Positions 12,408 through 38,193 of a stretch of DNA of 38,431 bases are shown piece after piece. Under the pieces are notes generated by a model that worked only from the letters and a program-made list of their open reading frames with translations, did not search any database and had not been told where the DNA came from. Within the stretch, counting starts at the first letter, position 1. Every line of letters begins with the position of its first letter. The position numbers and the translations under genes are program-made. Origin of the DNA: Methylococcaceae bacterium (lineage in GTDB: Bacteria > Pseudomonadota > Gammaproteobacteria > Methylococcales > Methylomonadaceae); contig JAGXGJ010000051.1 in NCBI GenBank assembly GCA_024636875.1, forward strand, positions 1 through 38,431, read 5' to 3'.

Positions 12408-12415
12408 AATCACGG

Positions 12416-13360: not shown

Positions 13361-13363
13361 TAA

Positions 13364-13539: not shown

Positions 13540-13548
13540 GCAAAAATA

Positions 13549-13815: not shown

Positions 13816-13824
13816 GAAAAACCC

Positions 13825-14055: not shown

Positions 14056-14084
14056 TGCAATATGTAGACACCAGCGCTGCGCTG
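14055..14084 (+). pseudogene. Truncated start of a VapC PIN toxin
   Basis: MQYVDTSAAL is the characteristic first strand of a PIN nuclease with its catalytic Asp. After ten codons the reading runs into a block of palindromic repeats (14071-14212) and then into the next antitoxin frame, so no PIN domain follows. The 182-residue ORF of the track (14055-14603) is a chance fusion of this stub, the repeats and the next antitoxin. Confidence 0.6.
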
Positions 14085-14212: not shown

Positions 14213-14243
14213 CAAAACTACTACTAGCCAAGAGGACATAATC

Positions 14244-14603
14244 ATGGACCACGCCCGGTTAATTTATGAAGACACACCCGCTTTTATTCCCGTACCAAAA
14301 GAAATGCAACACCGCAAAACAGAAATTACTTTTTTGCCGATGGATGATGAACTGGCACCAGAATCATCCACTACACCACAAACCACAGTAGAGCCAAGTA
14401 AATCATCTGCACTACATCCAGTCGAGTTAGCTGAAGTCAGAGACGTACTATTGTCTGATGAGTTTTTTGCATCTTTAGAAAAGGTAGAAACCAAAAACCC
14501 AAGATCACTGTTGGAACTCATCGGCAAAGGTCAAGGTTGTTTTAAAAATGCAGCTGAAGTTGACGCGTTTATCCGTGCGGAGCGTGATGCGTGGGACAAT
14601 TAA
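14244..14603 (+). CDS. VapB-like antitoxin
   Basis: A 119-residue antitoxin-like protein. Residues 8-35 repeat the motif DTPAFIPVP...MQHRKTEI...P.DD seen in the antitoxin at 12011, so the two are paralogues, but this one has a longer helical C-terminal tail. GAGGA lies about 7 bases before the ATG at 14244; the longer track ORF from 14055 is a fusion with repeats. Its end overlaps the toxin start by 13 bases. It lies within the insertion that splits pglX. Confidence 0.7.
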   Translation: MDHARLIYEDTPAFIPVPKEMQHRKTEITFLPMDDELAPESSTTPQTTVEPSKSSALHPVELAEVRDVLLSDEFFASLEKVETKNPRSLLELIGKGQGCFKNAAEVDAFIRAERDAWDN

Positions 14604-15046
14604 GGCAAGCCTTGCAAGGGCGGAATGTTTATTTAGATGCCAACATTTTTATTTATACCCTCGAAGGAATGGAGCCTTGGGCTAATTTATTATCAGACGT
14701 TTTCGCGGGTTTAACCACAGGTGAATTGTCGGCTGTTACCTGCAGTTTAAGTTTGTCTGAATGTTTGGTAATGCCATTTAAGCAAAACAAAAATGATTTA
14801 GTCGCCGTTTATCGTGAGGCACTCTTACCTGGTCATTATTTAACGATTGCGCCTATTGATGACAGAGTATTAATCTCAGCCGCAAACATTCGCGCCCAAA
14901 CCGGTTTAAAACTTCCCGATGCCATTCACGCCGCGACAGCCTTAATGCAACAATGCACAGCACAGCTCACCAACGACACAGGCTTTAGCCGCGTACCGGG
15001 CATCGAATTGTTTTTATTGTCTAACTGGATTTCCTCACCATGCTAA
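14591..15046 (+). CDS. PIN-domain toxin (VapC family)
   Basis: A 151-residue PIN nuclease with a GTG start. Acidic residues are retained: NVYLDANIFIYTLEG, the Glu in LSLSECLVMPF, the Asp in LKLPDAIHAATAL and TNDTGFSRVPGIEL. The toxin looks intact and pairs with the overlapping antitoxin. Its last codons (SSPC, stop at 15044-15046) run into the first bases of the pglX C-terminal piece, overlapping by 7 bases, which marks the right edge of the insertion in pglX. Translation of the pglX C-terminal piece may be coupled to this toxin. Confidence 0.8.
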   Translation: MGQLRQALQGRNVYLDANIFIYTLEGMEPWANLLSDVFAGLTTGELSAVTCSLSLSECLVMPFKQNKNDLVAVYREALLPGHYLTIAPIDDRVLISAANIRAQTGLKLPDAIHAATALMQQCTAQLTNDTGFSRVPGIELFLLSNWISSPC

Positions 15047-18000
15047 ACCCCGAAACCATCACCGTCCTGGATCCCGCTTGTGGTTCGGGACATATCCTGG
15101 TGGAAGCCTATGAGGTGTTGAAGGCAATTTACCTGGAGCGTGGTTACCGGATGCGCGATATTCCGCGCCTGATTCTGGAAAAGAATCTTTATGGCCTGGA
15201 CATCGACGAACGCGCCGCGCAATTGGCAGGTTTTGCGTTATTGATGAAAGCTCGTGCCGATGATAGGCGGTTGCTGGATAATCCGCCCAAGCTCAACGTG
15301 CTGGCTTTGCAGGAAAGTCCTAAAGCAGTTGAGGGACAAGGGTTTAGGGGCGAGGGGTTAGGCACGAGTGATTTTGACGCATTGTTGCCATTTCTAAGCC
15401 CTCGTCCCTCGTCCCTCGTCCCTAATCCCTATAACCTCATCCCTATCTTGCTGGACACCTTTGCACATGCTAAAACCTTCGGCTCACTGATTCAAATTCC
15501 ATCCGATTTGAATGCGCAACTGCCAGCGATGGACGCCGGTTTGCAGTTGGCCATTCAGAGTGGCGACCTGCTTGCTCAAGAAGCGGCATTAAATCTGTTG
15601 CCTTTGGTGCGGCAGGCGCGGATTTTGGGGATGCAGTTTGATGCAGTAGTGGCGAATCCGCCATATATGGGCGGCAAGGGGATGAATCCGGCGTTGAAGG
15701 ATTATGCTAAACGTGAGTTTCCTGATAGTAAATCTGATTTGTTTGCCATGTTTATAGAGCGCGGATTTGAGTGGTGCAAATCGTCTGGCTTTAACAGCAT
15801 GGTGACTATGCAGAGCTGGATGTTTTTGTCGTCGTTTGAGGCGATGCGAGAAAAATTATTGAAAGAACGAACGCTATCGTGCATGGTTCACATGGGAAAT
15901 GGCGTGATGGGCATTGCTTTTGGAACTGCCGCGACAATTTTTATTAATAAGCATATAAATGACTACGCGGGAAATTTTTCATATTGCGATAATAGCGATT
16001 TAAATGTGCAAAATATACCTTCGCATTTCCCTGTTCAAAATGAACGATTAAAAATTGCTAAGCCAGATGACTTCAAAAATATTCCAGGTAGTCCAGTTGC
16101 ATACTGGATTTCTCAAAACATAAGGGAAACTTTCAAGTTTGGAAAAATTTCGAAGTATGCTGAGCCGGCGGGGCGGTGCAAAACCACACAAGATGATCTC
16201 TATGTGAGGAATGTGTGGGAAGTAAATTCTAAAATGGTTAATGACAAATGGAAGTTTTTATTTAAGGGTGGTAAATCGGTTAAGTATTATGGCAATAAAG
16301 ATTACGTTATAGACTGGTCGCCAGAAGCAAGGTTTTTTTATAGTAGAACTGGAGGCTTGCCTCATGAAAGATATTGGGGAAAAGAAGGTTTAACTTGGAC
16401 TTTTGCAACATCTAGTGAGACTCTCGCTTTCAGATTTAAAGATCAATCCTCTCAATATAGTACGGTCTCCCCAACAATAGTATTTACCGATTCATCAAAA
16501 TTATTTGTGTCGTTATGTCTTTTGAATAGTATTGTTGCAGATAAGCTACTCAAGATACTTAACCCTACGCTTGGACTTAACATTGGAGATGTTTTAAACA
16601 TTCCAATTGACAATATCAGCCAAGACGATTTCAAACTTCTTGAAAAGAATGGAACTGAATTAACTGATATAGCCAAACTTAACTGGGATTCTTATGAAAC
16701 TTCGTGGAGCTTTTTAACAAACCCACTTATCAGCACTCAGCAAAAAACATTAAAAGCTTGTTATTTGCAATGGCAAACGCTAAATAGCCAATCCTTCGCA
16801 AAAATGCAAAGTATTGAAGAAGCAAATAATCGCCTCTTCATTAAAGCCTACGGCCTGCAAGTCGAACTCTCACCCGAAGTTCCCGAAGAGCAAATCACCC
16901 TCGCCCGCGCCGACCGTGAAAAAGACAGCCAACGGCTTATTTCCTATGCCATCGGCTGCATGATGGGGCGTTACCGGCTGGATAAGCCGGGGTTAATTTA
17001 TGCACATGCGGGGAATGTTGATTTCAACAAAATTTATAACGGAGGGAATAGGGATGAGGGACGAGGGGCGAGTGAAATGTTACCAAGACCTGATTGTTTG
17101 GCAGAAAGCAATGGAGTTGGTCGAGCTAGTGTATCGAATGACCAAAGTATTTCCGAACGAGGAACGCTATGGATTAAGCAGCCAGATTCAACGGGCGGCG
17201 GTGTCGATACCCTCGAATATCGCGGAGGGACATGCGAGACAGAGCCGTGCAGAATACCGGAATTTTCTATCCATCGCACAGGGTTCGAGAGCGGAAGTGG
17301 AGACTCAAACGCTGATAGCAGTACGTTTAGGTTATGTAACAGCAGCCCAGACCAAGGAAATAATGTCCTTGCTAGAAGAACTATCGAAAATGCTCAATGC
17401 ACTGAGAACCAAACTAACCTCTCATCCCTAAACCCTAATCCCTTCCTTCCTGACGCCGACGGCATTGTGCCGGTTACCGATGAACTCTGGTTTGAAGACG
17501 ACGCCGCCAACCGTATCGATGAGTTTTTGCAGGCGGCTTTTTTAGGGGTGAGGGATGAGGGGTTAGTGGCTAGGGAACAGGGTTTAGAGGGCAATGAAAC
17601 ATTGGCTACCCCCTCGCCCCTAACCCCTAATCCCTCTAACCTACAATGGCTGGCAGAAAGCCTAGGTCAAAAAGGCAATGAAACCCCACAGGAGACCATT
17701 CGCCGCTATATTGCCGGCAGCTTTTTCAAAGATCACCTGCAAACCTACAAAAAACGCCCGATTTATTGGTTGTTCTCCAGCGGTAAACAAGGTGCATTTC
17801 AGGCCTTGGTTTACTTGCACCGTTACAATGAAAGCACACTCGCCAGAATGCGCGCCGAATATGTCGTGCCTCTCACCGGCAAAATCCAGTCCCGCATCGA
17901 GATGCTGGAAAAAGATGCCGCTGCCGCCTCATCCAACGCAGCCCGCAGCAAGTTGAACAAGGACATCGAAAAGCTCAAGAAAAAACACGTCGAACTCCTC

Positions 18001-18141
18001 GCCTACGACGAAAAACTCCGCCATTACGCCGACCTACGCATCCAGCTCGACCTGGATGACGGCGTAAAAGTAAACTACGGCAAGTTTGGCGATTTACTGG
18101 CGGAAGTGAAGGCGGTGACCGGAGGTACAGGCAATGATTGA
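15040..18141 (+). CDS. pglX: PglX (BrxX), C-terminal catalytic piece of split BREX methyltransferase
   Basis: A 1033-residue piece with all the catalytic motifs of the N6-adenine methyltransferase: SAM motif TVLDPACGSGHILVEAYE at residues 8-25 and NPPYMGGKGM at about 206. The specificity region follows, then the conserved C-terminus TYKKRPIYWLFSSGKQGAFQ and LDDGVKVNYGKFGDLLAEV. PglX normally is one chain of about 1200 residues; here pieces of 314 and 1033 exceed that because three in-frame insertions lie at about residues 98-132, 667-801 and 834-868. The middle one contains a complete gene in another frame. The ATG at 15040 lies 7 bases upstream of the toxin stop and is the first Met before motif I. 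Whether the two pieces form an active enzyme is unknown. Confidence 0.9.
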   Translation: MLNPETITVLDPACGSGHILVEAYEVLKAIYLERGYRMRDIPRLILEKNLYGLDIDERAAQLAGFALLMKARADDRRLLDNPPKLNVLALQESPKAVEGQGFRGEGLGTSDFDALLPFLSPRPSSLVPNPYNLIPILLDTFAHAKTFGSLIQIPSDLNAQLPAMDAGLQLAIQSGDLLAQEAALNLLPLVRQARILGMQFDAVVANPPYMGGKGMNPALKDYAKREFPDSKSDLFAMFIERGFEWCKSSGFNSMVTMQSWMFLSSFEAMREKLLKERTLSCMVHMGNGVMGIAFGTAATIFINKHINDYAGNFSYCDNSDLNVQNIPSHFPVQNERLKIAKPDDFKNIPGSPVAYWISQNIRETFKFGKISKYAEPAGRCKTTQDDLYVRNVWEVNSKMVNDKWKFLFKGGKSVKYYGNKDYVIDWSPEARFFYSRTGGLPHERYWGKEGLTWTFATSSETLAFRFKDQSSQYSTVSPTIVFTDSSKLFVSLCLLNSIVADKLLKILNPTLGLNIGDVLNIPIDNISQDDFKLLEKNGTELTDIAKLNWDSYETSWSFLTNPLISTQQKTLKACYLQWQTLNSQSFAKMQSIEEANNRLFIKAYGLQVELSPEVPEEQITLARADREKDSQRLISYAIGCMMGRYRLDKPGLIYAHAGNVDFNKIYNGGNRDEGRGASEMLPRPDCLAESNGVGRASVSNDQSISERGTLWIKQPDSTGGGVDTLEYRGGTCETEPCRIPEFSIHRTGFESGSGDSNADSSTFRLCNSSPDQGNNVLARRTIENAQCTENQTNLSSLNPNPFLPDADGIVPVTDELWFEDDAANRIDEFLQAAFLGVRDEGLVAREQGLEGNETLATPSPLTPNPSNLQWLAESLGQKGNETPQETIRRYIAGSFFKDHLQTYKKRPIYWLFSSGKQGAFQALVYLHRYNESTLARMRAEYVVPLTGKIQSRIEMLEKDAAAASSNAARSKLNKDIEKLKKKHVELLAYDEKLRHYADLRIQLDLDDGVKVNYGKFGDLLAEVKAVTGGTGND
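15331..15436 (+). repeat. G-rich/C-rich arm pair A, in frame in pglX
   Basis: A purine-rich left arm (15331-15362, GAGGGACAAGGGTTTAGGGG...) and a pyrimidine-rich right arm (about 15397-15436, ending CCCTAATCCCTATAACC) bracket about 34 bases (TSDFDALLPF) that may be original pglX. The arms are near reverse complements of each other and share units such as GAGGGAC and TAGGG. The pglX frame stays open. The right end is nearly the same as in arm pair C (CCTAATCCCTCTAACC). Confidence 0.7.
17041..17442 (+). mobile_element. Arm-bounded element carrying a four-helix-bundle gene, inserted in pglX
   Basis: The element is bounded by GGAGGGAATAGGGATGAGGG at the left and CTCATCCCTAAACCCTAATC at the right, which are approximate inverted repeats. 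Between them is a complete gene (17054-17431) in the +1 frame of pglX. Comparison with normal PglX places the insertion between the residues NKIYN and FLPDADGIVPV, about 134 codons, a multiple of three, so pglX remains open throughout. Start and stop codons of the inner gene lie inside the arms. There is no known transposase; mobility is inferred from the two related arm pairs in the same gene. Confidence 0.65.
17054..17431 (+). CDS. Four-helix bundle protein (S23/IVP family) nested in pglX
   Basis: A 125-residue member of the four-helix-bundle family (PF05635/TIGR02436), first known from intervening sequences in 23S rRNA genes and related to the Avd protein of diversity-generating retroelements. 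The pattern is complete: VKCYQDLIVWQKAMELVELVY, RYGLSSQIQRAAVSIPSNIAEG, RNFLSIAQGSRAEVETQTLIA, LGYVTAAQTKEIMSLLEELSKML. The family is usually 115-125 residues. The track start at 17000 is in pglX; better starts are ATG 17054 (in the G-rich arm) or GTG 17072 (VKCYQDL). It is coded in the +1 frame within pglX on the same strand. Its role is unknown. Confidence 0.85.
   Translation: MRDEGRVKCYQDLIVWQKAMELVELVYRMTKVFPNEERYGLSSQIQRAAVSIPSNIAEGHARQSRAEYRNFLSIAQGSRAEVETQTLIAVRLGYVTAAQTKEIMSLLEELSKMLNALRTKLTSHP
17541..17642 (+). repeat. G-rich/C-rich arm pair C, in frame in pglX
   Basis: The left arm TTTAGGGGTGAGGGATGAGG... (17541-17588) and right arm ...CCCTAATCCCTCTAACC (17609-17642) surround a short core encoding NETLA. 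They are imperfect inverted repeats and resemble the arms of the elements at 15331 and 17041. PglX continues in frame on both sides (FLQAAF before, LQWLAESLGQ after), as in uninterrupted homologues. Confidence 0.7.
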
Positions 18142-19297
18142 AAAAATCCAAATCAAAAACTTTAAGTCGTTAGGCGATGAAGTTAGTTTGCCAATGGCAA
18201 AATTCAATTGCCTAATCGGCATGAATGGTTCTGGCAAAAGCACAGTGCTACAAGCACTTGATTTCATTTCTCAGATTATGATCGGTCACGTTCAAGAATG
18301 GCTGGATAGCCGCAGCTGGACCATCCATGATCTGAGCAGCAAGTTGCGTAAAGAGAGATATATTCTCCTTGCTGTACACTTTAAAACCTCAGACGGGCAA
18401 AAACTGATGTGGCATGGGTTTTTTAATAGGAATGAATTGCGATGCACCGGCGAGTTAGTCAAACTGAATGGAGATAAAATTTTTGAATCGGACGGGCGGC
18501 ATTTCCGACTCGAAGCGCAGCCCTGGCAAGGAATTGCCTTTAATTATCAAGGCTCTTTACTTTCTGTGTTGAAGGACTCCGAATTGTCTGTACCGGTACT
18601 GGAATTCCGTGATGCAATGCGGCGCATACGCTCGCTGGAGCTGCTTTCACCGCAACTAATGCGTAAAAGCGCACGTATTAACGATGTGGATATCGGCGCA
18701 GGTGGGGAAAAATTGGCTGGTTACTTGCACGGTATCAAAGGGGAGACCAGAAAAAAATTGGTCGAGTTGTTGAAAGCTTTTTATCCCAAACTCGAAGATT
18801 TCAAGGTGACAAATCAGCGTGCCGGTTGGAAAAAGTTATCGGTAATCGAACAATATGAAGGGCATCGCTTGGAAACGGAAGCCACACATCTCAGCGATGG
18901 CTTATTGCGGATTCTTGCCGTCCTTGCGCAATCGGGTTCTGATCGTTCATTGATCTTGCTCGATGAAATCGAGAATGGTATTAATCAGGAAATCATCGAA
19001 AAACTGGTTGATACCTTGGTAACCAGTCCGCAACAGATACTGGTCACCACCCATAGTCCATTGATTCTGAATTTTCTTGATGACGAAGTGGCACGCGAGG
19101 CGGTTCAGTTCATCTACAAGACACCGCAGGGTGAATCGCGCATACGGCCTTTCTTTGAGATTCCTCGCATCGGCGAGAAGCTGAGTTATATGGGTCCGGG
19201 TGATGCCTTTGTGGATACCAATCTGGAAGCTTTGACAGAAGAATGTATCGAATTGGATCGTTCCGACAAAAGCCCCCGTTTGGAAGAAATTGAATGA
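18134..19297 (+). CDS. AAA/ABC-like ATPase (RecF/OLD-like), BREX-nested
   Basis: A 387-residue ATPase of the AAA_21/OLD-like group. Walker A GMNGSGKST is at residues 29-37, directly after IKNFKSLGDEVSLPMAKFNCLI. The signature-like THLSDGLLRILAVL is near 250-262, Walker B LILLDEIENGIN near 272, and the switch His ILVTTHSPLILNFL near 303. Such ATPases sense phage components and activate a partner nuclease in systems such as PARIS, Gabija and Abi/OLD pairs. It overlaps pglX by 8 bases and the next gene by 4 (ATGA), so it is part of the BREX transcript. It is not a core BREX gene. The defence role is inferred from context. Confidence 0.8.
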   Translation: MIEKIQIKNFKSLGDEVSLPMAKFNCLIGMNGSGKSTVLQALDFISQIMIGHVQEWLDSRSWTIHDLSSKLRKERYILLAVHFKTSDGQKLMWHGFFNRNELRCTGELVKLNGDKIFESDGRHFRLEAQPWQGIAFNYQGSLLSVLKDSELSVPVLEFRDAMRRIRSLELLSPQLMRKSARINDVDIGAGGEKLAGYLHGIKGETRKKLVELLKAFYPKLEDFKVTNQRAGWKKLSVIEQYEGHRLETEATHLSDGLLRILAVLAQSGSDRSLILLDEIENGINQEIIEKLVDTLVTSPQQILVTTHSPLILNFLDDEVAREAVQFIYKTPQGESRIRPFFEIPRIGEKLSYMGPGDAFVDTNLEALTEECIELDRSDKSPRLEEIE

Positions 19298-20028
19298 TAT
19301 TGGTGTTAAGTGGAGAAGGTCCAACTGATTTAGGCTCTTGCACCAATTCTCTCGGACAATGTTGCGGCGATGACTTAGCCATCGGGCCTTTAACCGTATT
19401 GATTGACCAAATAATCACCCGATTGCAAGGGCGCTCAGTGTTGGCAAATCGGGATCGGCTTTATTACGTAAGCGAATCAAAACTTCGGGAGCGTGCTAAA
19501 GCACTCCCAGGTCGGCTAAAACCAGCTCGAAGCAAAAAGAGAGAGGCTGAAACAGGCTATTTCTTTGGCAATGCTGTAGCCCTTGGTGTAATTGCAAAAG
19601 AACTTGAGACCGAAACCGGACAAAACGCAATCGCTGTTCTGCACCGTGACTGCGACTCTACACGTTCCGGCCAAGCTGGGATGTGGAAAATTAAACATAA
19701 CTCTATGCTTGATGGATTTAAGTTTACCCGATTTTCACAGGGTGTGCCGATGCTACCCAAGCCAACCTCGGAGGTTTGGTGGCTTTGCGCTGCACAGCAA
19801 CAATCCTATCAGCATTGTTCACAGCTCGAAGATTTGCCCGGCAATCAGGCTTCTCTAAATCATCCAAAGAAAAAACTGGAACAAGTATTTGGCGGACACA
19901 AAACCGCAGCCGAACTTTGCGAATGGCTTGATGAAAATCCTTTTGATTTTGACCGTGCCGAATCAATGCCGAGTTTTAAAGCATTCGAGGTTGAGCTCGA
20001 ACGTGTGGTTAACGAGTTGATACATTAA
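19294..20028 (+). CDS. Toprim/DUF4276-like partner protein of the ATPase
   Basis: A 244-residue protein without a family name I can fix. The start MILVLSGEGPTDLG has the Glu of a Toprim-type active site, IAVLHRDCDSTR supplies the D-x-D motif, and PKPTSEVWWLCAAQ resembles the third acidic segment (E.W.L) of DUF4276/RloB-like proteins. Toprim proteins paired with AAA ATPases are the nuclease effectors of several anti-phage systems, so an effector role is plausible. Start and ATPase stop overlap by ATGA. After the stop, pglZ begins within 12 bases. Family assignment is by motif only. Confidence 0.6.
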   Translation: MILVLSGEGPTDLGSCTNSLGQCCGDDLAIGPLTVLIDQIITRLQGRSVLANRDRLYYVSESKLRERAKALPGRLKPARSKKREAETGYFFGNAVALGVIAKELETETGQNAIAVLHRDCDSTRSGQAGMWKIKHNSMLDGFKFTRFSQGVPMLPKPTSEVWWLCAAQQQSYQHCSQLEDLPGNQASLNHPKKKLEQVFGGHKTAAELCEWLDENPFDFDRAESMPSFKAFEVELERVVNELIH

Positions 20029-20039
20029 GGAACCCTATT

Positions 20040-22646
20040 TTGAGCCTACAACGCATCACCGATTCCCTGGCTGTCTTGTTTGCCTCGCATCCTATTGTGT
20101 TTTGGCATGATTCGGAAGGTGAATTTTCAGCAACGCTGGATAATCTTGCCCTGGATAATATCAATCTTGTCCGTTTGCAGGAGACACCGGCGCTACAAAT
20201 CAAAATGGCTATTGAACGCCAGCCTGAGCAGCGTTGGCTGTTTTATAGCACTCAGCCGGAACCGGACCCTGATAAAGATTGGTTATTGGATATTCGCTTA
20301 CGCAGTAAATCCTTTAAAGCCGATTCGACCTCAATCTTGCTGGATGATTTAGGTCTGGTTTCGCAAACTTTACGCGGGCATTTAAAAGAGCGAGCCAAGT
20401 TCCTACGCGCTAAAGAACGGGTTGAACGCTTAAGGCGTCTGGTGGCCGCCAGCGATAATGCAGACGACCTTGACCGGAAAATGTTGGCGGTTTTAACCCG
20501 TGCCGACCAGCCTGAATTGTTCTCTATTCTGCAACGCTTGTTTGCAACCTTGGTTGTTGATGGCGAAGTTAATCTCAATGCTCAGCCGAAAATCTGGCAG
20601 GACATCATCGCTAACGATCTGGAGGATGCCTTTTGGCTATTGGCAAAAACACAGCTAGGTTATGCCGAGACTGAACCGGGTTTGCGTGATTTATTGTTCC
20701 GTATTCTGGTGACTGATTTTTCTCGTTCATTCATGGATGAGCCCGCTGAAGCATTGAAGCATTTTATACTGCCTGAACGTAACCTCACCGCTAATGCTTC
20801 GGTGTTTGCTTCGCGATGGCGATCTGATTTAGCGCACTTTACCAGTTACAATCTGATTACAGCGGTGGTTGGACGTGACTTAGGGTTGGCTCATTTATTA
20901 GGTGGACTCTCGGCTGAGGACTTATCCGAGGTGATGACGTTTGAAGAAGTTGAACGCCGTATCATCAGTGATTTGAAGGATAGGGTTCTAGGTGCTGCGG
21001 GAGCCGCGATGGATTCTGTACTGACGCTGATTGCGCTGCGCAGGGATGGGCATTGGGCTAATCAAATTCTGGCTAATGCCAATGATGTGAACCGTGCTTT
21101 GGCTGCCAGTTATGATGCGTTGAAAGCCGCGACACATTTTTTAACCTTAAAGGATCAGCACAGGGAAGGTTTTAGTTTTGCTTCAAGTGCGGCGGGGTTT
21201 TCTACTTATCAAACAGAGTTATATCGATTTGATCAACTCTATCGACACTTTAACCGCGCTACCGAATTTGTCGAGCCTATGGGTTGGGCGGTTTTGCATG
21301 AATTAAAGCAACGTATTGAAGCGGCTTATTCAGGCTGGTTTATCCCCCAGTTAAGTTCGGCTTGGGGTAAGATTCTGGAAGGTGAGGCTGGATTGCTGTC
21401 ATCCTGGCGGATACCCGGCGTCATAAATCAGCAGAACTTTTTTGATAAGGTTGTATTGCCTTTGTCTGACGGTGGCACTAAACGGGTATTTGTCATCATT
21501 TCCGATGCGTTTCGTTTCGAGGTGGCAGAGGAGCTGGTTCAGATTATCAATAGTAAGAGCCGGTTTAAAGCGGTACTTTCCAGTCTATTAGGGGTATTGC
21601 CCAGTTATACCGGTTTGGGCATGGCATCACTGTTACCACATCAAACCTTGGCGTATAAAATTAACAGCAGTCTGGAACTGATGGCCGATGGCAAGCCGGT
21701 ATCGACCATGGAACAACGCAGCGCTTATTTAGCGGCGTATTCCGGGGCTGCCATTAAAGCCGAAGATTTGTTGGCAATGGGTAAAGATAAAGGCAGGGAA
21801 TTCGTTCGTGAACGCCGGTTGATTTATATTTACCATGACCGTATTGATTTGATTGGCGATAAACAGTCTTCCGAGACCAAGACTTTTGAGGCCGCCGCCG
21901 ATACTGTCATTGAGCTTGCCCAATTGGCCGGTTTTATCGTCAATAGTCTGAATGGCTATAATGTCCTGGTAACTGCCGATCATGGTTTTATGTACCAGGA
22001 ATCGGCGTTGGAAGAAGCCGATAAATCAACACTTTCTGAAAAACCGGAAGGGACGTTAGTGGCGAAAAAACGTTATTTATTGGGGCAAGGTATCGGTTGC
22101 AATGCTAAAGCCTGGTCTGGAAACACCGCATTGACGGCTGGGACTGAACCAGAAGGCAGTCTCGATTTCTGGATACCTAAAGGCGCAAACCGGTTTCATT
22201 TTAGCGGTGGCGCACGATTTGTTCATGGTAGTGCCATGCCTCAGGAAATAGTGGTTCCGGTGATTGCAATCCGTTCAACAGAATCGGCGTTAGCCAAAAC
22301 CAAGGTAGTTAGTATCAGTTTGCTGGGGGCATCCAACAAGGTGGTTACCAATACTCAACGTTTTGAGTTTATCCAGAATGAAGCCGTTTCCGAGCGTGTA
22401 TTACCTCGCGCATTAGTGATCTCTTTGCGTGATGGTGACCAGCCTATCAGTAATGAACAGACCGTCACCTTCGATAGCAGCTCGCAACTGCTTGATGAAC
22501 GCAAACGTTCGTTGTTGCTAACGGTGTTGTCGGGTTCTTATGACCGTAACAAAGACTATTATCTGGTTGCCCGTGATGCAGCAACCAAGGTAGAAGTGCT
22601 GCGTGCGCCAGTGAAAGTTGATCTGGCCTTCAGTAACGATTTTTAG
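20040..22646 (+). CDS. pglZ: BREX protein PglZ (alkaline phosphatase superfamily)
   Basis: An 868-residue PglZ, a core BREX protein with an alkaline-phosphatase-like fold that acts with BrxC and PglX. The metal-site strand is FVIISDAFRFEVAEELVQ at about residue 482 and the second is NVLVTADHGFMYQ at about 640, followed by RFHFSGGARFVHGSAMPQEIVVPVIAI with metal-binding His residues. Length matches type 1 PglZ (about 830-880). The start is TTG, eight bases after AAGGA; no in-frame ATG near would keep the conserved N-terminus. No disruption is seen. Confidence 0.93.
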   Translation: MSLQRITDSLAVLFASHPIVFWHDSEGEFSATLDNLALDNINLVRLQETPALQIKMAIERQPEQRWLFYSTQPEPDPDKDWLLDIRLRSKSFKADSTSILLDDLGLVSQTLRGHLKERAKFLRAKERVERLRRLVAASDNADDLDRKMLAVLTRADQPELFSILQRLFATLVVDGEVNLNAQPKIWQDIIANDLEDAFWLLAKTQLGYAETEPGLRDLLFRILVTDFSRSFMDEPAEALKHFILPERNLTANASVFASRWRSDLAHFTSYNLITAVVGRDLGLAHLLGGLSAEDLSEVMTFEEVERRIISDLKDRVLGAAGAAMDSVLTLIALRRDGHWANQILANANDVNRALAASYDALKAATHFLTLKDQHREGFSFASSAAGFSTYQTELYRFDQLYRHFNRATEFVEPMGWAVLHELKQRIEAAYSGWFIPQLSSAWGKILEGEAGLLSSWRIPGVINQQNFFDKVVLPLSDGGTKRVFVIISDAFRFEVAEELVQIINSKSRFKAVLSSLLGVLPSYTGLGMASLLPHQTLAYKINSSLELMADGKPVSTMEQRSAYLAAYSGAAIKAEDLLAMGKDKGREFVRERRLIYIYHDRIDLIGDKQSSETKTFEAAADTVIELAQLAGFIVNSLNGYNVLVTADHGFMYQESALEEADKSTLSEKPEGTLVAKKRYLLGQGIGCNAKAWSGNTALTAGTEPEGSLDFWIPKGANRFHFSGGARFVHGSAMPQEIVVPVIAIRSTESALAKTKVVSISLLGASNKVVTNTQRFEFIQNEAVSERVLPRALVISLRDGDQPISNEQTVTFDSSSQLLDERKRSLLLTVLSGSYDRNKDYYLVARDAATKVEVLRAPVKVDLAFSNDF

Positions 22647-22651
22647 GATGG

Positions 22652-24709
22652 ATGATGAACGACACTGTAAACGCTGCCGATAGGGACAGAAGTCTGGATA
22701 CCTTATTAAACCAAAGTTTTGCCGGTAAAGTCGTGCGCAAGGATTTAACCAAGCTGATCAAGGAAGGCGCCAATGTGCCGGTTTATGTGCTGGAATATTT
22801 GCTTGGGATGTATTGTGCCAGTGATGATGAAGAAACCATTCAGGCAGGCTTGAAGAACGTTAAGCGCATTTTGGCGGATAACTATGTCCGGCCTGATGAA
22901 GCCGAGAAGGTCAAATCCAAAATCAGGGAAAGTGGCAGTTACAAGGTGATTGATAAAGTCACCGTTAAGCTTAATGAACGGCGTGATGTCTATGAAGCCA
23001 TCTTGTCCAATCTGGGTGTCAAAGGCGTTGAAATTTCTGACCGCACCGTTAAAGATTATGAAAAACTGTTGGCCGGGGGTATCTGGTGCATTATTACTCT
23101 GAAGTATTATTTTGAAGAGGGTCAGGCCGGATCGCCTTTTCAAGTCACTGAATTAAAACCCATCCAAATGCCGAATATGGATATGGACGTCTTGTTTGAA
23201 GGGCGCAAAGCGTTTGATAGTAAGCAATGGCTGGATGTGTTGCTGCGTTCCACCGGCATGGAACCAATGCATTTTAATGAACGGGCAAAATGGCATCTGC
23301 TGGCACGGATGATTCCCTTCGTTGAGAATAATTATAATGTCTGCGAATTGGGTCCACGCGGCACCGGAAAAAGTCATATTTATAAGGAAGTCAGCCCCAA
23401 CAGTATTTTGATTTCCGGTGGTCAAACAACCGTCGCCAATCTTTTTTATAATCTGGGCAGGCAATCGATTGGTCTGGTTGGCTTATGGGATGTCGTGGCT
23501 TTCGATGAAGTGGCCGGTATCTCGTTTAAGGATAAAGACGGCATCCAGATTATGAAAGACTTTATGGCCTCCGGTTCATTCGCCAGAGGCCGCGATTCGA
23601 TTGTGGCTTCCGCCAGTATGGTGTTTGTCGGCAATATCAATCAATCCGTTGATACCCTGGTTAAAACCAGTCACTTATTAACGCCCTTTCCGGATGTGAT
23701 GATTGATACCGCGTTTTTTGACCGATTCCATGCGTATATTCCCGGCTGGGAAATTCCCAAAATGCGGCCGGAGTTTTTTACTAATCAATATGGTTTGATT
23801 GTCGATTATCTGGCCGAGTTTATGCGGGAAATGCGTAAACGCAGTTTTTCCGATGCCATCGATAAATATTTCAAGCTGGGCAATAACCTGAATCAACGCG
23901 ATACCATTGCTGTCAGGCGCACGGTATCGGGTTTATTAAAGCTGCTCTATCCCCATGGTGAATACGACAAGGCAGCCGTGGCTCAATGCCTTGAGTATGC
24001 GCTGGAAACCCGTCGCCGCGTTAAGGAACAATTAAAAAAGATCGGCGGCATGGAGTTTTTCGACGTGCATTTCAGCTATATCGATCAGGACACCATGGAA
24101 GAGAAGTTTGTGAATGTCCCCGAGCAAGGAGGCGATAAGCTGATTCCGGAAGGTACTTTAAAGCCGGGTGTATTGCATACCATTTCCCAAGGGGTAAAAG
24201 GTCATTTGGGCCTGTTCAGAATTGAAACCCAAATGACAGCGGGTAATGGTAAACTGAATCTTTCCGGTTTTGGCAGCAACACCCAGGCTAAAGAAGCCAT
24301 TAAAGTTGGATTTGATTTCTATAAAGGCAATATTTCCAGAGTCAGCGGTTCGGCAAAAGCCGCAGATCACGACTATCATTTGCATCTAATCGAATTGCAC
24401 AACAGCGGCCCCTCGCAGAGTTTAACTATGGCGGGGTTTGTTGCCTTTTGCTCAGGCGTTCTTAATAAATCGATCCAAAGTCAGATGGTTATTCTAGGCA
24501 CCATGACGCTAGGCGGAAATATTATCCCGGTTGAAAATTTGGCGGAAACCCTGCAAATGGCGTTTGATTCCGGAGCCAAACGCATATTATTACCGATGGC
24601 CAGTGTCAGTGATATTCCAACCGTCAGAGGCGAATTATTCGCCAAATTCCAAACCAGTTTTTATTCTGACCCGGTTGATGCTGTGTTTAAGGCGCTGGGG
24701 GCTGAGTAA
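22652..24709 (+). CDS. brxL: BREX protein BrxL (Lon-like AAA+ ATPase)
   Basis: A 685-residue BrxL. It carries ELGPRGTGKSHIYKEVSP (Walker A) near residue 233 and VVAFDEVAGISF (Walker B) near 280. A C-terminal Lon-protease-like domain follows, with NSGPSQSLTMAGFVAFCSG near 586 and GNIIPVENLAETL. BrxL has been described as an MCM-like ring ATPase that binds DNA and is needed for phage restriction rather than for host methylation. Length is typical. The start ATG follows the pglZ stop by 5 bases (a second ATG is 3 bases later). It is the last BREX gene. Confidence 0.95.
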   Translation: MMNDTVNAADRDRSLDTLLNQSFAGKVVRKDLTKLIKEGANVPVYVLEYLLGMYCASDDEETIQAGLKNVKRILADNYVRPDEAEKVKSKIRESGSYKVIDKVTVKLNERRDVYEAILSNLGVKGVEISDRTVKDYEKLLAGGIWCIITLKYYFEEGQAGSPFQVTELKPIQMPNMDMDVLFEGRKAFDSKQWLDVLLRSTGMEPMHFNERAKWHLLARMIPFVENNYNVCELGPRGTGKSHIYKEVSPNSILISGGQTTVANLFYNLGRQSIGLVGLWDVVAFDEVAGISFKDKDGIQIMKDFMASGSFARGRDSIVASASMVFVGNINQSVDTLVKTSHLLTPFPDVMIDTAFFDRFHAYIPGWEIPKMRPEFFTNQYGLIVDYLAEFMREMRKRSFSDAIDKYFKLGNNLNQRDTIAVRRTVSGLLKLLYPHGEYDKAAVAQCLEYALETRRRVKEQLKKIGGMEFFDVHFSYIDQDTMEEKFVNVPEQGGDKLIPEGTLKPGVLHTISQGVKGHLGLFRIETQMTAGNGKLNLSGFGSNTQAKEAIKVGFDFYKGNISRVSGSAKAADHDYHLHLIELHNSGPSQSLTMAGFVAFCSGVLNKSIQSQMVILGTMTLGGNIIPVENLAETLQMAFDSGAKRILLPMASVSDIPTVRGELFAKFQTSFYSDPVDAVFKALGAE

Positions 24710-33136: not shown

Positions 33137-33850
33137 TTAACAGCCTTCATCATGAGTAAACCTGACGCTTTCCTCAGCTGAACGCCCCAGCGCTTTAGCA
33201 AACCAGGGCGGGGGAGCCGCAAATACTTTCTGAAATTCCTTCAATTGATCTTCTGCTTCGGTTACCTCCGGAATCTTGATCGGGTAGATATCGGCGCGTA
33301 TCACTTTAGCCGCAGCCGGCCCACCGATAGATTGCACGAACAGAACATGGCAGTCTTTAATCAGATTGGCACGAAACAGGTTTCTATCTTCGCTGCTGTC
33401 GGCTTCAATAGTTGATCTTATATCAACCAGTTTGCAATCATCCTGTGATAACTGATAAACCAGAAAACGTATGCAGGAACCAAAATGCCCGTTAATCAAC
33501 GCGCCACTGTTGGAACCTATGGCGACGCGGATAGAATCGGGCATGTCGCCATCCCTGTAAGGTAATATCTCCGGCAGGTCTTCATCTTCAGCTTCGTCGC
33601 CCCACAGATAACGCACTGCCAGTTTGATATTGGCAAGACCGATGCCTATGTCTTCGCCATCTTCTTCTCCATCCAGACTGCCCAAGCCGGTTTTAAGATT
33701 GGTGACAGTGATGGATTTTAATTTTTCATCATCCAGGGGTGAGCCTATTCGCTCATGTAATATTCCCAGAAGCTTGGGTATATCAATACCAGGCAGGATG
33801 CGCGATGCCAGAGCGATGCGCAAGGCCAGTTCACGGGGCAATGCTTCCAT
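33137..33850 (-). CDS. NafY-like nitrogenase cofactor-binding protein (NifX domain)
   Basis: A 237-residue protein in two parts. The N-terminal helical part is ALRIALASRILPGIDIPKLLGIL, followed by EKLKSITVTNLKTGLGSLDG. The C-terminal part is of the NifX/NifB-like dinitrogenase iron-molybdenum cofactor-binding type (IRVAIGSNSGALINGHFGSCIRFLVYQL, with the cofactor-ligand His of GHFGSC). Layout and length match NafY, which holds FeMo-co and stabilises apo-dinitrogenase. I begin at the ATG at 33850, preceded by AGGAG inside the end of the ankyrin gene; the track start at 33871 overlaps that gene. It is third in a rhodanese-ankyrin-NafY operon with a sigma-54 promoter. Confidence 0.8.
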   Translation of the reverse strand: MEALPRELALRIALASRILPGIDIPKLLGILHERIGSPLDDEKLKSITVTNLKTGLGSLDGEEDGEDIGIGLANIKLAVRYLWGDEAEDEDLPEILPYRDGDMPDSIRVAIGSNSGALINGHFGSCIRFLVYQLSQDDCKLVDIRSTIEADSSEDRNLFRANLIKDCHVLFVQSIGGPAAAKVIRADIYPIKIPEVTEAEDQLKEFQKVFAAPPPWFAKALGRSAEESVRFTHDEGC

Positions 33851-33851
33851 T

Positions 33852-34304
33852 TCAATCTCCTGATTTAACAAGCTTGGATAGTAGTTTAAGTATCTTTCTG
33901 GTGGAGGCTAAATCCAGCGCAGTAAAATCGTCGTGCGTTTTAAGGTCCGGATCAGCGTCAGCCGCTAATAGTTGTTCAACAACGGTTTCTCTGCCACTGG
34001 ATGCCGCAAAAATCAGGGCAGTAGCGCCAGAAGCGGAATTTTGATGATTAATTTCGACTCCTGCATGAATCAGTGCATCGATACACTCGCTGTTTTCAGC
34101 ATAACAAGCTACCCACAATGCGTTATTACCATAGTGATCCATAACATCCGTCGCTGCATTTTGCTCAAGCAAAAAATGAACAACGTCGCCACGGCCTTGC
34201 TGACTGGCTAAAATTAAAGGATAAATGCCGGCATTGTTCTTTAAAACCGGTTGGGCTACCGAGAAATAGTTATTTTGTAACCAGTCCCATATTTCTGGCT
34301 TCAT
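33852..34304 (-). CDS. Ankyrin repeat protein
   Basis: A 150-residue protein with about four ankyrin repeats: GIYPLILASQQGRGDVVHFLL, NALWVACYAENSECIDALIHAG, GATALIFAASSGRETVVEQLL and FTALDLAS. Ankyrin repeats mediate protein contacts; no enzyme domain is present. It starts at a TAATG overlap with the rhodanese stop and carries the ribosome site of the NafY-like gene within its last codons, so the three are one operon. A role in nitrogen fixation is inferred from the neighbours. Confidence 0.85.
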   Translation of the reverse strand: MKPEIWDWLQNNYFSVAQPVLKNNAGIYPLILASQQGRGDVVHFLLEQNAATDVMDHYGNNALWVACYAENSECIDALIHAGVEINHQNSASGATALIFAASSGRETVVEQLLAADADPDLKTHDDFTALDLASTRKILKLLSKLVKSGD

Positions 34305-34612
34305 TATGCTTCCTGATGTTTATCTTTCCAGCTGGAATAGCCCCCTTCCAGGCTGTAAACATGCTTGAAGCCGAAATCGCTAAAAAACTCGGCAAGATGC
34401 TCGCTGGCATGGCCGTAATAACAATAAATCAACAAACTGCGTTGTTTATCGCCGCGTTTGACTAAAGAATGTTTCAAGCCTTCATGAACATGCAGGGCAT
34501 CTTCTAAATGCCCTGCCCTATAATCTTTCAAGTCCCGGCAGTCCAGAATCATGGGTTTTGATTCCTCAATCAGTTTTTCAGAATCGGCAATGGAGATAAT
34601 TTTGTATTTCAT
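34304..34612 (-). CDS. Rhodanese-like sulfurtransferase (GlpE-type)
   Basis: A 102-residue single-domain rhodanese. MILDCRDLKDYRAGHLEDALHV is the N-terminal CH2A-like segment. LLIYCYYGHASEHLAEFF holds the catalytic Cys in a six-residue loop (CYYGHAS), close to GlpE (CYHGxSS). FKHVYSLEGGYSSWKD ends the domain. It moves sulfane sulphur to acceptors. In nif clusters rhodaneses may aid Fe-S supply. First gene of its operon; 5' leader of about 137 bases from the sigma-54 promoter. Confidence 0.85.
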   Translation of the reverse strand: MKYKIISIADSEKLIEESKPMILDCRDLKDYRAGHLEDALHVHEGLKHSLVKRGDKQRSLLIYCYYGHASEHLAEFFSDFGFKHVYSLEGGYSSWKDKHQEA

Positions 34613-34759: not shown

Positions 34760-34776
34760 AGCAAATTATTTGCCAA
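34760..34776 (-). promoter_or_regulatory. Sigma-54 (-24/-12) promoter of the rhodanese-ankyrin-nafY operon
   Basis: On the minus strand the sequence TTGGCAAATAATTTGCT fits TGGCA-N6-TTGCW, with the invariant GG and GC ten bases apart. Predicted transcription start is near 34749, 137 bases before the rhodanese ATG. Such promoters need RpoN and an activator such as NifA. Confidence 0.7.
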
Positions 34777-35181: not shown

Positions 35182-36894
35182 TTAGTGTTTTTCTGCAGAT
35201 TTCCCCAGATCCATGCCCCGGAAAATTGAGCAGCGTTTGAATACCTCCAATGTCGGCGCTACTTTTTTGTGTTGACAAAACTTCGCGACCAGCTTGGCAA
35301 GTCCTTTAATATCGCGGCCCGTTGCTTCCGGGAAGGTTTCCACTAATTGATTGATCAAATAAGCATCAACATCCAGAGCGAATTGCTCGATCATCACCTG
35401 CCAAATCCGTCTGCGTGCCTCACTGTCCGGCGGATAATACTTGATCAGGGCGATACAGCGGGAAACAATCGCTTCATCAATGTCATCAACACGATTAGTC
35501 GTCAAAAACAGCAAGCCGTTAAAATATTCAAGCACCCTCAAAAATACCCCGACCACGGCATTCATGGCGATGTTGTTATCGCGGCGCTTGATGTAGACAT
35601 CCGCCTCGTCAATCAGCATCACGGCGCCCCAGCGCTGAGCGCGGGTTAAGACATCTTTCAAGGCTTTTTCCATTTCCACTACATTGAGCCCCAGTTGTCC
35701 GGAATGGACGCGGTACAACGGACGCTTGATAATTTCGGAATAGACTTCGGCAGTCAACGTCTTACCGACGCCTGCAGGTCCTGCGCACAACACGGTTGTT
35801 CCTCCAGACTTGCCTTCAACAATATCATCCATCAAGACATCCATTTCGGCGGTCAGAATGTCAATCAAATCGATCTGTTCTTCACGCAGAACCAATTTTT
35901 GCTTCAATTCCGGCTGGTATCGATAAGGCTTGATGTCATTGACATGAACCCATAAATGATGATGCAGTTCCAGATGAAACATCAGCAAATAGCAATGTAC
36001 CGGCAGTTCGGTAAACAAACCTTTGGGTATTTGGGTTTGCGATGCCTCAACTTCATTTTCGACCTTGCAGTCATAGCGATTACTTTTAGCGGCTTTGCGC
36101 AAATATTTGGCAAGAATGTCGCCTTTGGCATCGACAGTCAAGGCGCGCTCGCTCAGAATACTTTCATCACAAACCAGGCATGCAGCTCCGCCTTCTGTCG
36201 ACAAAACCACGACATCTTTACGCGCCCAGTCGGTGCTGCGATGCGAAGCCGTGGGATCTTCAGCATAAAACCCGGTGCCTTTTCCGGAAAACTGTGCGCC
36301 GGACTGTCCGCACCATTCGAAATATCGTCCTGCTGCGTCGTCATAAGTTCTGATCAGTTCAGGCGTTTCTTTAAGAAAGCCTTTAGCTGCAAAAATTTCG
36401 GTAACCGTTTTATCGGCAATGTCCCGCGCGCGGATAGTGAGGGTTGAAATTGCCACTTTGCCTTTGGCGTTGGCTTTAAGCTCAAGCGTGACGCGTCCGG
36501 TTTCTTCCTCGCCCGAAGGCGTAAAGTCCAGCCGGGTAACTACGTAGGCCATGGGTTTTCCGGCCACGTTGGCCTGGAATAACCAGCCGCGTATGGCGTT
36601 ATTGATCATATAACGGGCAAGCGCCGGCAGCAGCATTTCCAGGTCATCTTCTTCAAACCTGACCGTATCATCGTTCATCGCTTTTTGCAGGGTTGACAGC
36701 TGCGCGGCATGACCCTGCATTTGCTTCCCTGCATTCTTGTACAAAAGCTGCAAAAAGCTGAGCTCGGTATTGGACAGTTGCCTGAAGGGTACTTCGGCTT
36801 TATTGCCAAAACGCAGTTGATCTTTCAAGGCTGACAGTCCCGGGAATTCATCAACCATTGTTTCTACATACTTGCGTTCAATCTGAAGTTTCAT
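35182..36894 (-). CDS. AAA+ ATPase of unknown function, in a NifA/sigma-54-type operon
   Basis: A 570-residue protein. The first 340 residues match no family I recognise. The last 200 form an AAA+ domain: Walker A TTVLCAGPAGVGKTLTAEVY near residue 365, Walker B AVMLIDEADVYIKRR near 427, LLFLTTNRVDDIDEAIVSRC with sensor 1 and the arginine finger region. The AAA part resembles chaperone-like ATPases with PLYRVHSGQLG and YFNGLLFLTTNRV, a style common in fungal AAA proteins and rarer in bacteria. It probably remodels a protein partner. It is the third gene of an operon with two unknown proteins, 17 bases after the second. Nitrogenase-related work is inferred from the promoter and neighbours. Confidence 0.75.
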   Translation of the reverse strand: MKLQIERKYVETMVDEFPGLSALKDQLRFGNKAEVPFRQLSNTELSFLQLLYKNAGKQMQGHAAQLSTLQKAMNDDTVRFEEDDLEMLLPALARYMINNAIRGWLFQANVAGKPMAYVVTRLDFTPSGEEETGRVTLELKANAKGKVAISTLTIRARDIADKTVTEIFAAKGFLKETPELIRTYDDAAGRYFEWCGQSGAQFSGKGTGFYAEDPTASHRSTDWARKDVVVLSTEGGAACLVCDESILSERALTVDAKGDILAKYLRKAAKSNRYDCKVENEVEASQTQIPKGLFTELPVHCYLLMFHLELHHHLWVHVNDIKPYRYQPELKQKLVLREEQIDLIDILTAEMDVLMDDIVEGKSGGTTVLCAGPAGVGKTLTAEVYSEIIKRPLYRVHSGQLGLNVVEMEKALKDVLTRAQRWGAVMLIDEADVYIKRRDNNIAMNAVVGVFLRVLEYFNGLLFLTTNRVDDIDEAIVSRCIALIKYYPPDSEARRRIWQVMIEQFALDVDAYLINQLVETFPEATGRDIKGLAKLVAKFCQHKKVAPTLEVFKRCSIFRGMDLGKSAEKH

Positions 36895-36911
36895 AGGTCT
36901 TCTAAAAATTC

Positions 36912-37481
36912 TTAAATTGCACCTACGGCTGCTTCTTTAACCACCACTATGGTATTTTCTTCTGCTTCTGCAAATGAAACGAGTGGCGTTTTTGGCTTAT
37001 ACGATTTGGCTGCCGCATAGGCGATAGCGACTTTATCTTCAGCAGATTGATTCTTCAGCTCGCTTTTTTCGATATATAGTTCTTCAAGTAATTCATTCCA
37101 TACCAGGCCTTGTCTAAAAGGAATCAATTTGTAGGACACACCTTCCAGTTCAACCTGCATTCCTTTACCGATATTTTCTACATAAATCAAGGCAATGCAG
37201 TCTGGAGCTATATCGTCTTTATATTTTTCAACAAAAACGGGCAGCAGATCGAGCGTTGGCAACAGGCCATTGATGAATTTGATCATGTCGTTTTCAACGA
37301 TCAGCGCAGAATGAATCAACAGAGCCTCAGGCGGTTTGCGGTCATTTGTTGTACCTTCTCGCAAAGCACCTTCTTTTAATACCAGGTCACCACGGTAAGC
37401 ATAAACACCCGCATCGCTGGTTTGACCATTAACCAGAGTTACAGTCAGTAAGCCTTTTGCTTGGTAGTTTTCTAGTAGCAT
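36912..37481 (-). CDS. Hypothetical protein, ATPase operon
   Basis: A 189-residue protein I do not recognise. It begins MLLENYQAKGLLTVTLVNGQ, has no signal peptide or membrane segment, and looks alpha/beta with an Ala- and Val-rich C-terminus. GGAG lies 12 bases before the ATG. It lies between the small first gene and the AAA ATPase, so it could be an adaptor or substrate of that ATPase. Composition is like its neighbours. Confidence 0.7.
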   Translation of the reverse strand: MLLENYQAKGLLTVTLVNGQTSDAGVYAYRGDLVLKEGALREGTTNDRKPPEALLIHSALIVENDMIKFINGLLPTLDLLPVFVEKYKDDIAPDCIALIYVENIGKGMQVELEGVSYKLIPFRQGLVWNELLEELYIEKSELKNQSAEDKVAIAYAAAKSYKPKTPLVSFAEAEENTIVVVKEAAVGAI

Positions 37482-37525
37482 TGTTTGTTTCTCCAGATGA
37501 GTTTAAGTAAAAATAAAATCGTTGA

Positions 37526-37942
37526 TCAGTTTATTACATGTTGTTCCTTTGTGGCTGCCAGTTCCACCAACGCTAAATGTCCAGACACATCAAACAGAAT
37601 ATGTTGTTCTCTAAAGAATTCGCCGGCCGCATCAATTGCATCCAGCAGAATGGCGATGACAAAACGCTCGGCATGGATTGATGCCACCATCTTTTCCGGT
37701 ACGGCGGACTCGATTCTTAGAATCTGCCCGACGCTGTCAAATGAGTGCAAACGCAAGCCTGCGAAGTCTGCTTTTTCTTGCCGACTGGGTAATAAAAATA
37801 CAATGTCCAGGACCGGCGTCCTCTGTTGTACGAGTCGATCACGAAATCCTGCCAACTCCGTAGCAACTTTTGTAATGGCTTTAATTAACTCACTCTCATC
37901 AAGAGAACGATCCGGGATCATGTAGCCAATGTGTAATGTCAT
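37526..37942 (-). CDS. Hypothetical protein, first gene of the sigma-54 ATPase operon
   Basis: A 138-residue protein of unknown family, MTLHIGYMIPDRSLDESELIKAI onward; helical and soluble. I start it at the ATG at 37942, which has GAGGTG at the right distance. The track start at 38002 would be upstream of the transcription start predicted from the sigma-54 promoter (about 37955), so it can be excluded. The 5' leader would be only about 13 bases. The operon continues with two genes at gaps of 44 and 17 bases. Confidence 0.75.
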   Translation of the reverse strand: MTLHIGYMIPDRSLDESELIKAITKVATELAGFRDRLVQQRTPVLDIVFLLPSRQEKADFAGLRLHSFDSVGQILRIESAVPEKMVASIHAERFVIAILLDAIDAAGEFFREQHILFDVSGHLALVELAATKEQHVIN

Positions 37943-37964
37943 ATTCACCTCTTTTATAAATTTT

Positions 37965-37982
37965 AAGCAAAACCCTTGCCAA
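37965..37982 (-). promoter_or_regulatory. Sigma-54 (-24/-12) promoter of the ATPase operon
   Basis: On the minus strand the sequence TTGGCAAGGGTTTTGCTT fits the consensus YTGGCACG-N4-TTGCW with a single change (C to A). GG (37980-37979) and GC (37968-37967) are ten bases apart as required. Predicted start near 37955. Confidence 0.8.
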
Positions 37983-38144
37983 TATTTTATTCTGGATCGC
38001 AAGAGGATAAGGATCGGCTAACAAAAAATTGATTATTCCATTACTGCCTGATTTTATAGCTGATTTCTGATGAACATCAGATGAAACTTCTATAAGACAA
38101 GCGCTCATAACGCAGCCAGATTAAGCCCTGCACTGGCAAGTGCT

Positions 38145-38160
38145 TGTCGCAAACCTTACA
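38145..38160. promoter_or_regulatory. NifA-type upstream activator site, proximal
   Basis: TGTCGCAAACCTTACA is an exact TGT-N10-ACA, the consensus bound by NifA, about 165 bases upstream of the -24 box of the operon on the minus strand. The site alone could be chance; the tandem copy 33 bases further supports it. Confidence 0.65.
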
Positions 38161-38177
38161 AAATATTAAAAAGCAAC

Positions 38178-38193
38178 TGTGATATAAGTAACA
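38178..38193. promoter_or_regulatory. NifA-type upstream activator site, distal
   Basis: TGTGATATAAGTAACA is a second exact TGT-N10-ACA. It lies 33 bases from the first, about three turns of DNA, so both would lie on the same face of the helix, as with many paired activator sites. About 200 bases from the -24 box. Confidence 0.65.

Follow-up and report, generated by a model that had tools for sequence, protein, structure and literature searches.

What does a three-gene operon do when it combines an AAA+ ATPase with a promoter of the nitrogen-fixation type, and how closely can it be tied to nitrogenase? The question is raised by the minus strand near one end of contig JAGXGJ010000051.1 of a Methylococcaceae bacterium (assembly GCA_024636875.1), whose 38,431 nucleotides we call the window and which is contig C94 of a draft genome that is 77% complete. 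A preliminary description had placed this operon under NifA/sigma-54-type control and linked it to nitrogen fixation. The evidence agrees with that proposal: the promoter is conserved, the AAA+ gene co-occurs with nifD and is often surrounded by nif genes, and a syntenic gene, azo3791, is NifA-dependent according to published work. From the sequence comparisons set out below we consider it very probable that this is a nif accessory operon under NifA/sigma-54 control. The genes and their predicted control sites are the following.

37526 to 37942, minus strand: gene 1, encoding 138 amino acids, with its ATG at 37942 and AGAGGTG before the ATG
36912 to 37481, minus strand: gene 2, encoding 189 amino acids, a member of a nif-associated family, with PST1324 of Pseudomonas stutzeri as its likely syntenic counterpart
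35182 to 36894, minus strand: gene 3, encoding a 570-residue AAA+ ATPase with a family-specific N-terminal region (residues 1 to about 340) and a classical AAA domain (residues 368-480)
37965 to 37982, minus strand: predicted sigma-54 (-24/-12) promoter TTGGCAAGGGTTTTGCTT, score 15.4 of 16.1
38145 to 38160, minus strand: proximal NifA-type activator site TGTAAGGTTTGCGACA, which matches TGT-N10-ACA exactly and lies 179 bp before the promoter
38178 to 38193, minus strand: distal NifA-type activator site TGTTACTTATATCACA, which matches TGT-N10-ACA exactly and lies 212 bp before the promoter

The genes are closely spaced, with 44 nucleotides between genes 1 and 2 and 17 between genes 2 and 3. The promoter had been called near-perfect, and indeed TTGGCAAGGGTTTTGCTT is the only sigma-54 site in the window that scores 15 or more; both activator sites were likewise found where they had been described, 33 bp apart. 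When the window was shuffled 100 times with its dinucleotides preserved, a sigma-54 site scoring 15 or more arose 0.24 times per shuffled window, and 0.01 times when an activator site 60-260 bp upstream was also required, while none of the 100 contained such a site with two activator sites at that distance. The operon carries the arrangement that marks the NifA/sigma-54 regulon, a -24/-12 promoter with TGT-N10-ACA sites upstream of it (by about 100-200 bp). During nitrogen fixation, NifA at both sites would activate sigma-54 polymerase at 37982-37965, and the three operon proteins would be made together with nitrogenase.

The same arrangement recurs in relatives. Of 76 related loci, 38 have a sigma-54 site scoring at least 13 in the 250 bp before the first gene, where shuffles lead one to expect 2.4, and in 21 of the 76 it is accompanied by a TGT-N10-ACA another 60-260 bp upstream (0.05 expected). 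The near-identical promoter TGGCAAGTGTTTTGCT occurs in relatives, and the paired activator-site geometry of the window was seen again in at least seven of them. Gene 1 also stands alone in seven further loci, where genes 2 and 3 are not adjacent to it; all seven have a sigma-54 site no more than 53 bp from the gene, and five have a TGT-N10-ACA 186-207 bp ahead of it. The AAA+ gene of the Azoarcus-like genome G152 is preceded by TGGCACCAATTCTGCT and a TGT-N10-ACA.

The preliminary description had made its proposal depend on the presence of nifHDK in the genome. We found nifH, nifD and nifK on contig C132, together with a second NafY-like gene and a pnfA-like gene divergent from nifH, and contig C34 of the same genome carries nifE, nifN, nifX, DUF269, DUF683, fdxB, a Shethna-type ferredoxin and a TPR protein. 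The phylogenetic co-occurrence that it had suggested as a check was borne out in three genome sets, in which some genomes are incomplete. Among 121 Methylococcales genomes, 51 carry the AAA+ gene and 65 carry nifD, and all 51 AAA+ carriers have nifD. In a sample of 369 gammaproteobacteria, nifD is present in seven of the eight carriers of a nif-type AAA+ gene versus 31 of the 369 overall, and in a Rhodocyclaceae-type family (181 genomes, the family of an Azonexus metagenome-assembled genome) the corresponding figures are 16 of 17 and 75 of 181; five genomes of this last family that have only a 41% identical paralogue all lack nifD. Fisher p-values were 1e-21, 1e-7 and 3e-6, respectively, and are optimistic because the genomes are related. 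The two nif-type carriers without nifD are G214, which has a partial match, and G544. The latter genome, which is 99% complete, carries a nif-type AAA+ gene and a member of the gene 2 family, and has NifX-like and other nif-associated genes beside its AAA+ gene (loci L089 and L118), so that its nif cluster may have been lost or left unassembled, or these genes may have another use.

In a tally of 79 loci longer than 6 kb, with flanks of up to 8 kb per side (12 kb for one plasmid locus), core nif or rnf genes were found near the AAA+ gene in 43. A pnfA-like gene, gene 2 and the AAA+ gene are contiguous in L020, L022 and L030, with gene 1 between them in L020; in L022 and L030 this row is divergent from nifH, in the order nifH, pnfA, the 189-residue protein and AAA+. 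Co-occurrence with nifD and a nif neighbourhood, the features of an accessory nitrogen-fixation gene, are therefore both seen for the AAA+ gene. Three further families were noted in these surroundings. One, of about 115 residues, has the motif VDCATAVMLKILDGKCKM and no Pfam family, and recurs by the AAA+ gene in nif loci (L070, 10044-10388; L089, 6506-6874; L042, L073 and L081). The other two, of 165 residues (L019, 3470-3967) and 124 residues (L012, 2894-3268), recur in nif clusters, where they lie between gene 2 and a Shethna-type ferredoxin, and had no match in Pfam or NCBIfam.

Published work offers two counterparts. One is azo3791 of Azoarcus sp. BH72, a "conserved hypothetical ATPase" that belongs to a set of eight NifA-regulated genes having both RpoN and NifA sites (PMC3916325); HupL and HupF of that strain are azo3787 and azo3793 (PMC3534401). 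The AAA+ gene of G152 is flanked by hupL-hupC-gpx and hupD-hupF, with hupF two genes further on, and is therefore the positional counterpart of azo3791, an identity drawn from synteny only. It is NifA-regulated, as is predicted for the operon studied here, but it is a single gene next to hydrogenase genes, and genes 1 and 2 are missing there. Beyond one line on azo3791 we found no study of the AAA+ protein, and no client, biochemical work or mutant, in a literature search that left most subscription papers outside its reach, and azo3791 is absent from the main text of the Azoarcus Tn-Seq paper.

The second counterpart is the pnfA operon (PST1325-PST1324) of P. stutzeri A1501. There pnfA (PST1325) is oriented divergently from nifH and depends on NifA and sigma-54; a pnfA mutant retained 23% nitrogenase activity microaerobically and was similar to the wild type anaerobically, for which the authors suggested electron transfer or oxygen protection (PMC2820453). 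In Azomonas, NafY is followed by a 131-residue open reading frame, a gene 2 family member, a SIR2-like gene and nifH. This order matches PST1322-PST1326, and PST1324, which is induced 26-fold under nitrogen fixation, is therefore the likely counterpart of gene 2, again by synteny only; PST1325 itself was rejected as gene 2, the Azomonas order making it the SIR2-like pnfA. The pnfA operon has the NifA/sigma-54 control that is predicted for the operon in the window and, by gene order, shares gene 2 with it, and in some methanotrophs a pnfA-like gene, gene 2 and the AAA+ gene are contiguous; but no AAA+ gene has been described in the pnfA operon, and pnfA is missing from the operon in the window, lying beside nifH on C132. 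None of the three operon proteins matched the SIR2_2-like domain that characterizes PnfA. Two other candidates from the literature were set aside: nafU of Azotobacter encodes an unrelated 13.8-kDa inner-membrane protein (PMC8907163), and the AAA ATPase by nif genes reported from a bog lake is a transposon-like ATPase in Chlorobi (PMC7341956).

The protein encoded by gene 3 is a classical AAA ATPase. Its domain PF00004 at residues 368-480 scores 60.1 bits against a curated cut-off of 21.2, and the motifs Walker A (AGPAGVGKT), Walker B (VMLIDEAD), sensor 1 (TTNR) and the arginine finger (R479) are kept across 45 sequences. The first 340 or so residues had no significant match in Pfam, NCBIfam or PDB sequences, as the claim of a novel N-terminus implied, with the correction that paralogues exist outside diazotrophs; a fold search with the modelled N-terminal region returned AAA fragments, none of them significant. 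PDB matches cover only residues 364-534 or so, the best being 5vc7 (3.1e-14), and the best sequence matches of the AAA domain are Cdc48/VCP-like and proteasomal AAA ATPases, from which gene 3 differs in its N-terminal region, its one AAA domain and the lack of a pore-loop aromatic. In pore loop 1, a near-invariant N404 takes the position of a tryptophan in 5vc7, and the loop reads LGLNV in the nif clade and LGI or LGV in most paralogues, so that the aromatic-hydrophobic-glycine loop of threading unfoldases of the Cdc48, FtsH and Clp type is not present. Nor is there a fused protease domain as in the AAA proteases FtsH and Lon, and no other Pfam domain scored above its cut-off. Models for CbbX/CbbQ/MoxR-type activases or metal chelatases gave no Pfam or NCBIfam match (none at E<=1 for CbbX, CbbQ or MoxR), and for IetA/TRIP13-type defence ATPases there was no full-length match, only partial AAA-domain matches of at most 48 bits in PADLOC and 38 bits with NCBIfam IteA, whose cut-off is 510.

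Of 250 AAA+ relatives found, the best 80, from proteobacterial loci, are 68-93% identical to gene 3 over nearly its full length, and the closest named one is from a Methylobacter metagenome-assembled genome (93%). Hosts of these 80 include Methylococcales, Ferrovum, Gallionellaceae, Sulfuriferula, Thiothrix, Azomonas, Azonexus, Bradyrhizobium and Methylocella, among others. In the tree, all 46 nif-type proteins fall on one side of a 100/100 branch; the order of the paralogue branches is uncertain because several are long. A distant branch of paralogues (about 33-41% identity) is found on large plasmids (loci L084-L088), mostly of bacteria without nif genes in sight, and in the Bacillus jumbo phages PBS1 and AR9. 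The plasmid and PBS1/AR9 proteins align over most of gene 3 and have N-terminal residues such as G103, W104, H311, W315 and H317 in common with it, but they are 34-41% identical, have no nif association and form a separate branch. The Bacillus phage vB_BsuM-Goe21 also carries a paralogue within the 33-41% range. Paralogues are sometimes annotated as ATP-dependent proteases, an annotation that in the phages is not supported by any domain found.

Genes 1 and 2 had been described as lacking a recognizable family. This holds in so far as they matched no family in Pfam, NCBIfam, PHROGs or PADLOC and their divergent homologues yielded no family name either, but the 189-residue protein is no orphan and belongs to a widespread nif-associated family. 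Gene 2 is present in 62 of the 65 Methylococcales genomes with nifD, and ten of the 11 members' genomes among the 369 gammaproteobacteria have nifD. Its distant members adjoin nifH in Methyloversatilis, Azomonas and Methylococcus, are found in a Bradyrhizobium close to nifS and a nifU-like gene, and occur on plasmids of root-nodule Cupriavidus and Paraburkholderia. An AlphaFold model of the protein has a confident fold (pLDDT 91.8), and its best matches among PDB structures were at E 0.009 or worse with TM <0.3. Gene 1 was found in 15 Methylococcales genomes, all 15 with nifD.

Downstream of the operon lie further genes, two of which recur beside the AAA+ gene elsewhere. The NafY-like gene that had been noted nearby was recognized by both of its domains.

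34304 to 34612, minus strand: rhodanese-family gene (PF00581, 6.9e-17), a recurrent neighbour of the AAA+ gene
33852 to 34304, minus strand: ankyrin-repeat gene (PF12796, 2.8e-19), a recurrent neighbour of the AAA+ gene
33137 to 33847, minus strand: NafY/NifX-like gene (DIMCO_N, 1.6e-34; Nitro_FeMo-Co, 1.6e-16)
34760 to 34775, minus strand: sigma-54-like site TGGCAAATAATTTGCT before the rhodanese gene, score 14.7, with no exact TGT-N10-ACA upstream

A second sigma-54-like site at 34930 on the minus strand (score 13.9) is also ahead of the rhodanese, ankyrin and NafY genes, and the sole TGT-N10-ACA near the two lies downstream of both. Elsewhere in the window, a BREX-1 system occupies 6255-24709 on the plus strand (brxA, brxB, brxC, pglX, pglZ, brxL). 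Its pglX is split, 12416-13360 corresponding to model positions 1-305 and 15040-18141 beginning at 304, with about 1.7 kb of small open reading frames and a PIN-domain gene between the parts, and PDC-M25A/B candidate defence genes are at 18134-20028. Membership of the AAA+ gene in BREX or another defence system was rejected: PADLOC gave weak AAA-domain matches only, and the AAA+ gene is separated from the end of BREX by over 10 kb that includes housekeeping genes.

How might the AAA+ protein act? With its classical AAA domain it probably forms an ATPase ring, and its N-terminal region, perhaps with the 189-residue protein as partner or adaptor, could bind a nitrogenase-related client, whose ATP-driven remodelling may keep nitrogenase or the maturation machinery working in microoxic conditions. 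Remodelling is favoured over degradation because pore loop 1 has no aromatic residue and there is no protease domain. The Rubisco activases CbbX and CbbQO are AAA+ proteins that are encoded with one metabolic enzyme system and remodel that enzyme; the protein of gene 3 may act like such an activase or remodeller, not as a protease, although the likeness is a functional analogy without close relationship, no CbbX, CbbQ or MoxR family match having been found in NCBIfam. We offer this explanation as a whole, an accessory nif operon whose AAA+ protein is a remodeller under microoxic conditions, as the best available but a tentative one. Remodelling of a nitrogenase-related client is in itself plausible, if short of probable, and microoxic protection or repair as its purpose is a possibility that we advance with more reserve. 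The more specific idea of a dedicated nitrogenase activase of aerobic and microaerobic proteobacteria, in which a NifA-controlled AAA+ ring with the 189-residue protein would respond to oxygen stress by reactivating or remodelling the Fe protein, the MoFe protein or a maturation intermediate, in a role like that of Rubisco activases, appears rather unlikely. A function in assembling, repairing or protecting nitrogenase, as originally proposed for the operon, is still something that we infer.

Several observations weigh against this explanation. Among genomes with nifD, the AAA+ gene is missing from 14 of 65 Methylococcales, from 59 of 75 members of the Rhodocyclaceae-type family and from 24 of 31 in the gammaproteobacterial sample; it is thus no core nif gene of the kind found in practically every genome with nifD, and with so many diazotrophs lacking it, the protein is not generally needed. 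Paralogues occur in non-diazotrophs and phages, the G152 gene is inside an uptake-hydrogenase cluster, and we found no physical link between the AAA+ protein and nitrogenase. The AAA part of the structure model of gene 3 is poor, which bears on ring formation. The oxygen argument is borrowed from pnfA, an operon neighbour in relatives that was studied in another species, and nitrogenase activity of the pnfA mutant was also much lower anaerobically with nitrate (PMC2820453).

Other readings draw on parts of the same evidence. The AAA+ protein could drive maturation and not repair, using ATP to insert or deliver FeMo-co, Fe-S clusters or molybdenum together with NafY, NifX, NifEN and ferredoxins. 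Recurrent neighbours such as nifE, nifN, nifX, DUF269, fdxB, a Shethna-type ferredoxin, NafY and rhodanese, joined in Methylococcus by isc genes, nifV and nifW, would suit such a role; however, well-studied assembly pathways work without this AAA+ protein, many genomes with nifD lack it, and the lack of a metal-chelatase or MoxR family match adds to our view that this is somewhat improbable. That it is a quality-control unfoldase passing damaged nitrogenase proteins to a separate protease is suggested by the closeness of its AAA domain to Cdc48/VCP, proteasomal and FtsH-type ATPases and by the protease annotation of a phage relative, yet that annotation has no support from the domains found, N404 replaces the pore-loop aromatic, and neither a protease domain nor, in the sequence of the gene 3 C-terminus, an obvious protease-docking tail was seen, which leaves this role very doubtful.

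A place in the NifA regulon would also be expected if the protein served another co-induced process, for example uptake hydrogenase or electron supply. The G152 gene lies within a hup cluster, hupS and hupL are near the AAA+ gene in L010, rnf genes adjoin it in Thiothrix and a flavodoxin in Methyloversatilis, but none of these partners is common to the loci, and hydrogenase genes occur in only two loci versus nif genes in 43 of 79; we regard this as quite unlikely. An ordinary mobile-element or defence ATPase with a nif promoter by coincidence is extremely improbable: it could point to the 37-41% identical paralogues on plasmids and in PBS1 and AR9 and to the BREX-1 system in the same window, but the 100/100 branch parts the nif-type proteins from those paralogues, the nif-type proteins track nifD in three genome sets, their common promoter is far above chance, and the distance to BREX and the weakness of the PADLOC matches speak against it too.

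Oxygen, together with gaps in what is known of the accessory genes, limits the transfer of nitrogenase to crops and aerobic hosts. Conserved, under predicted NifA control and following nifD in several proteobacterial groups, in some of which its gene sits with the 189-residue family and pnfA beside nifH, the AAA+ protein is an overlooked candidate for such an accessory factor.

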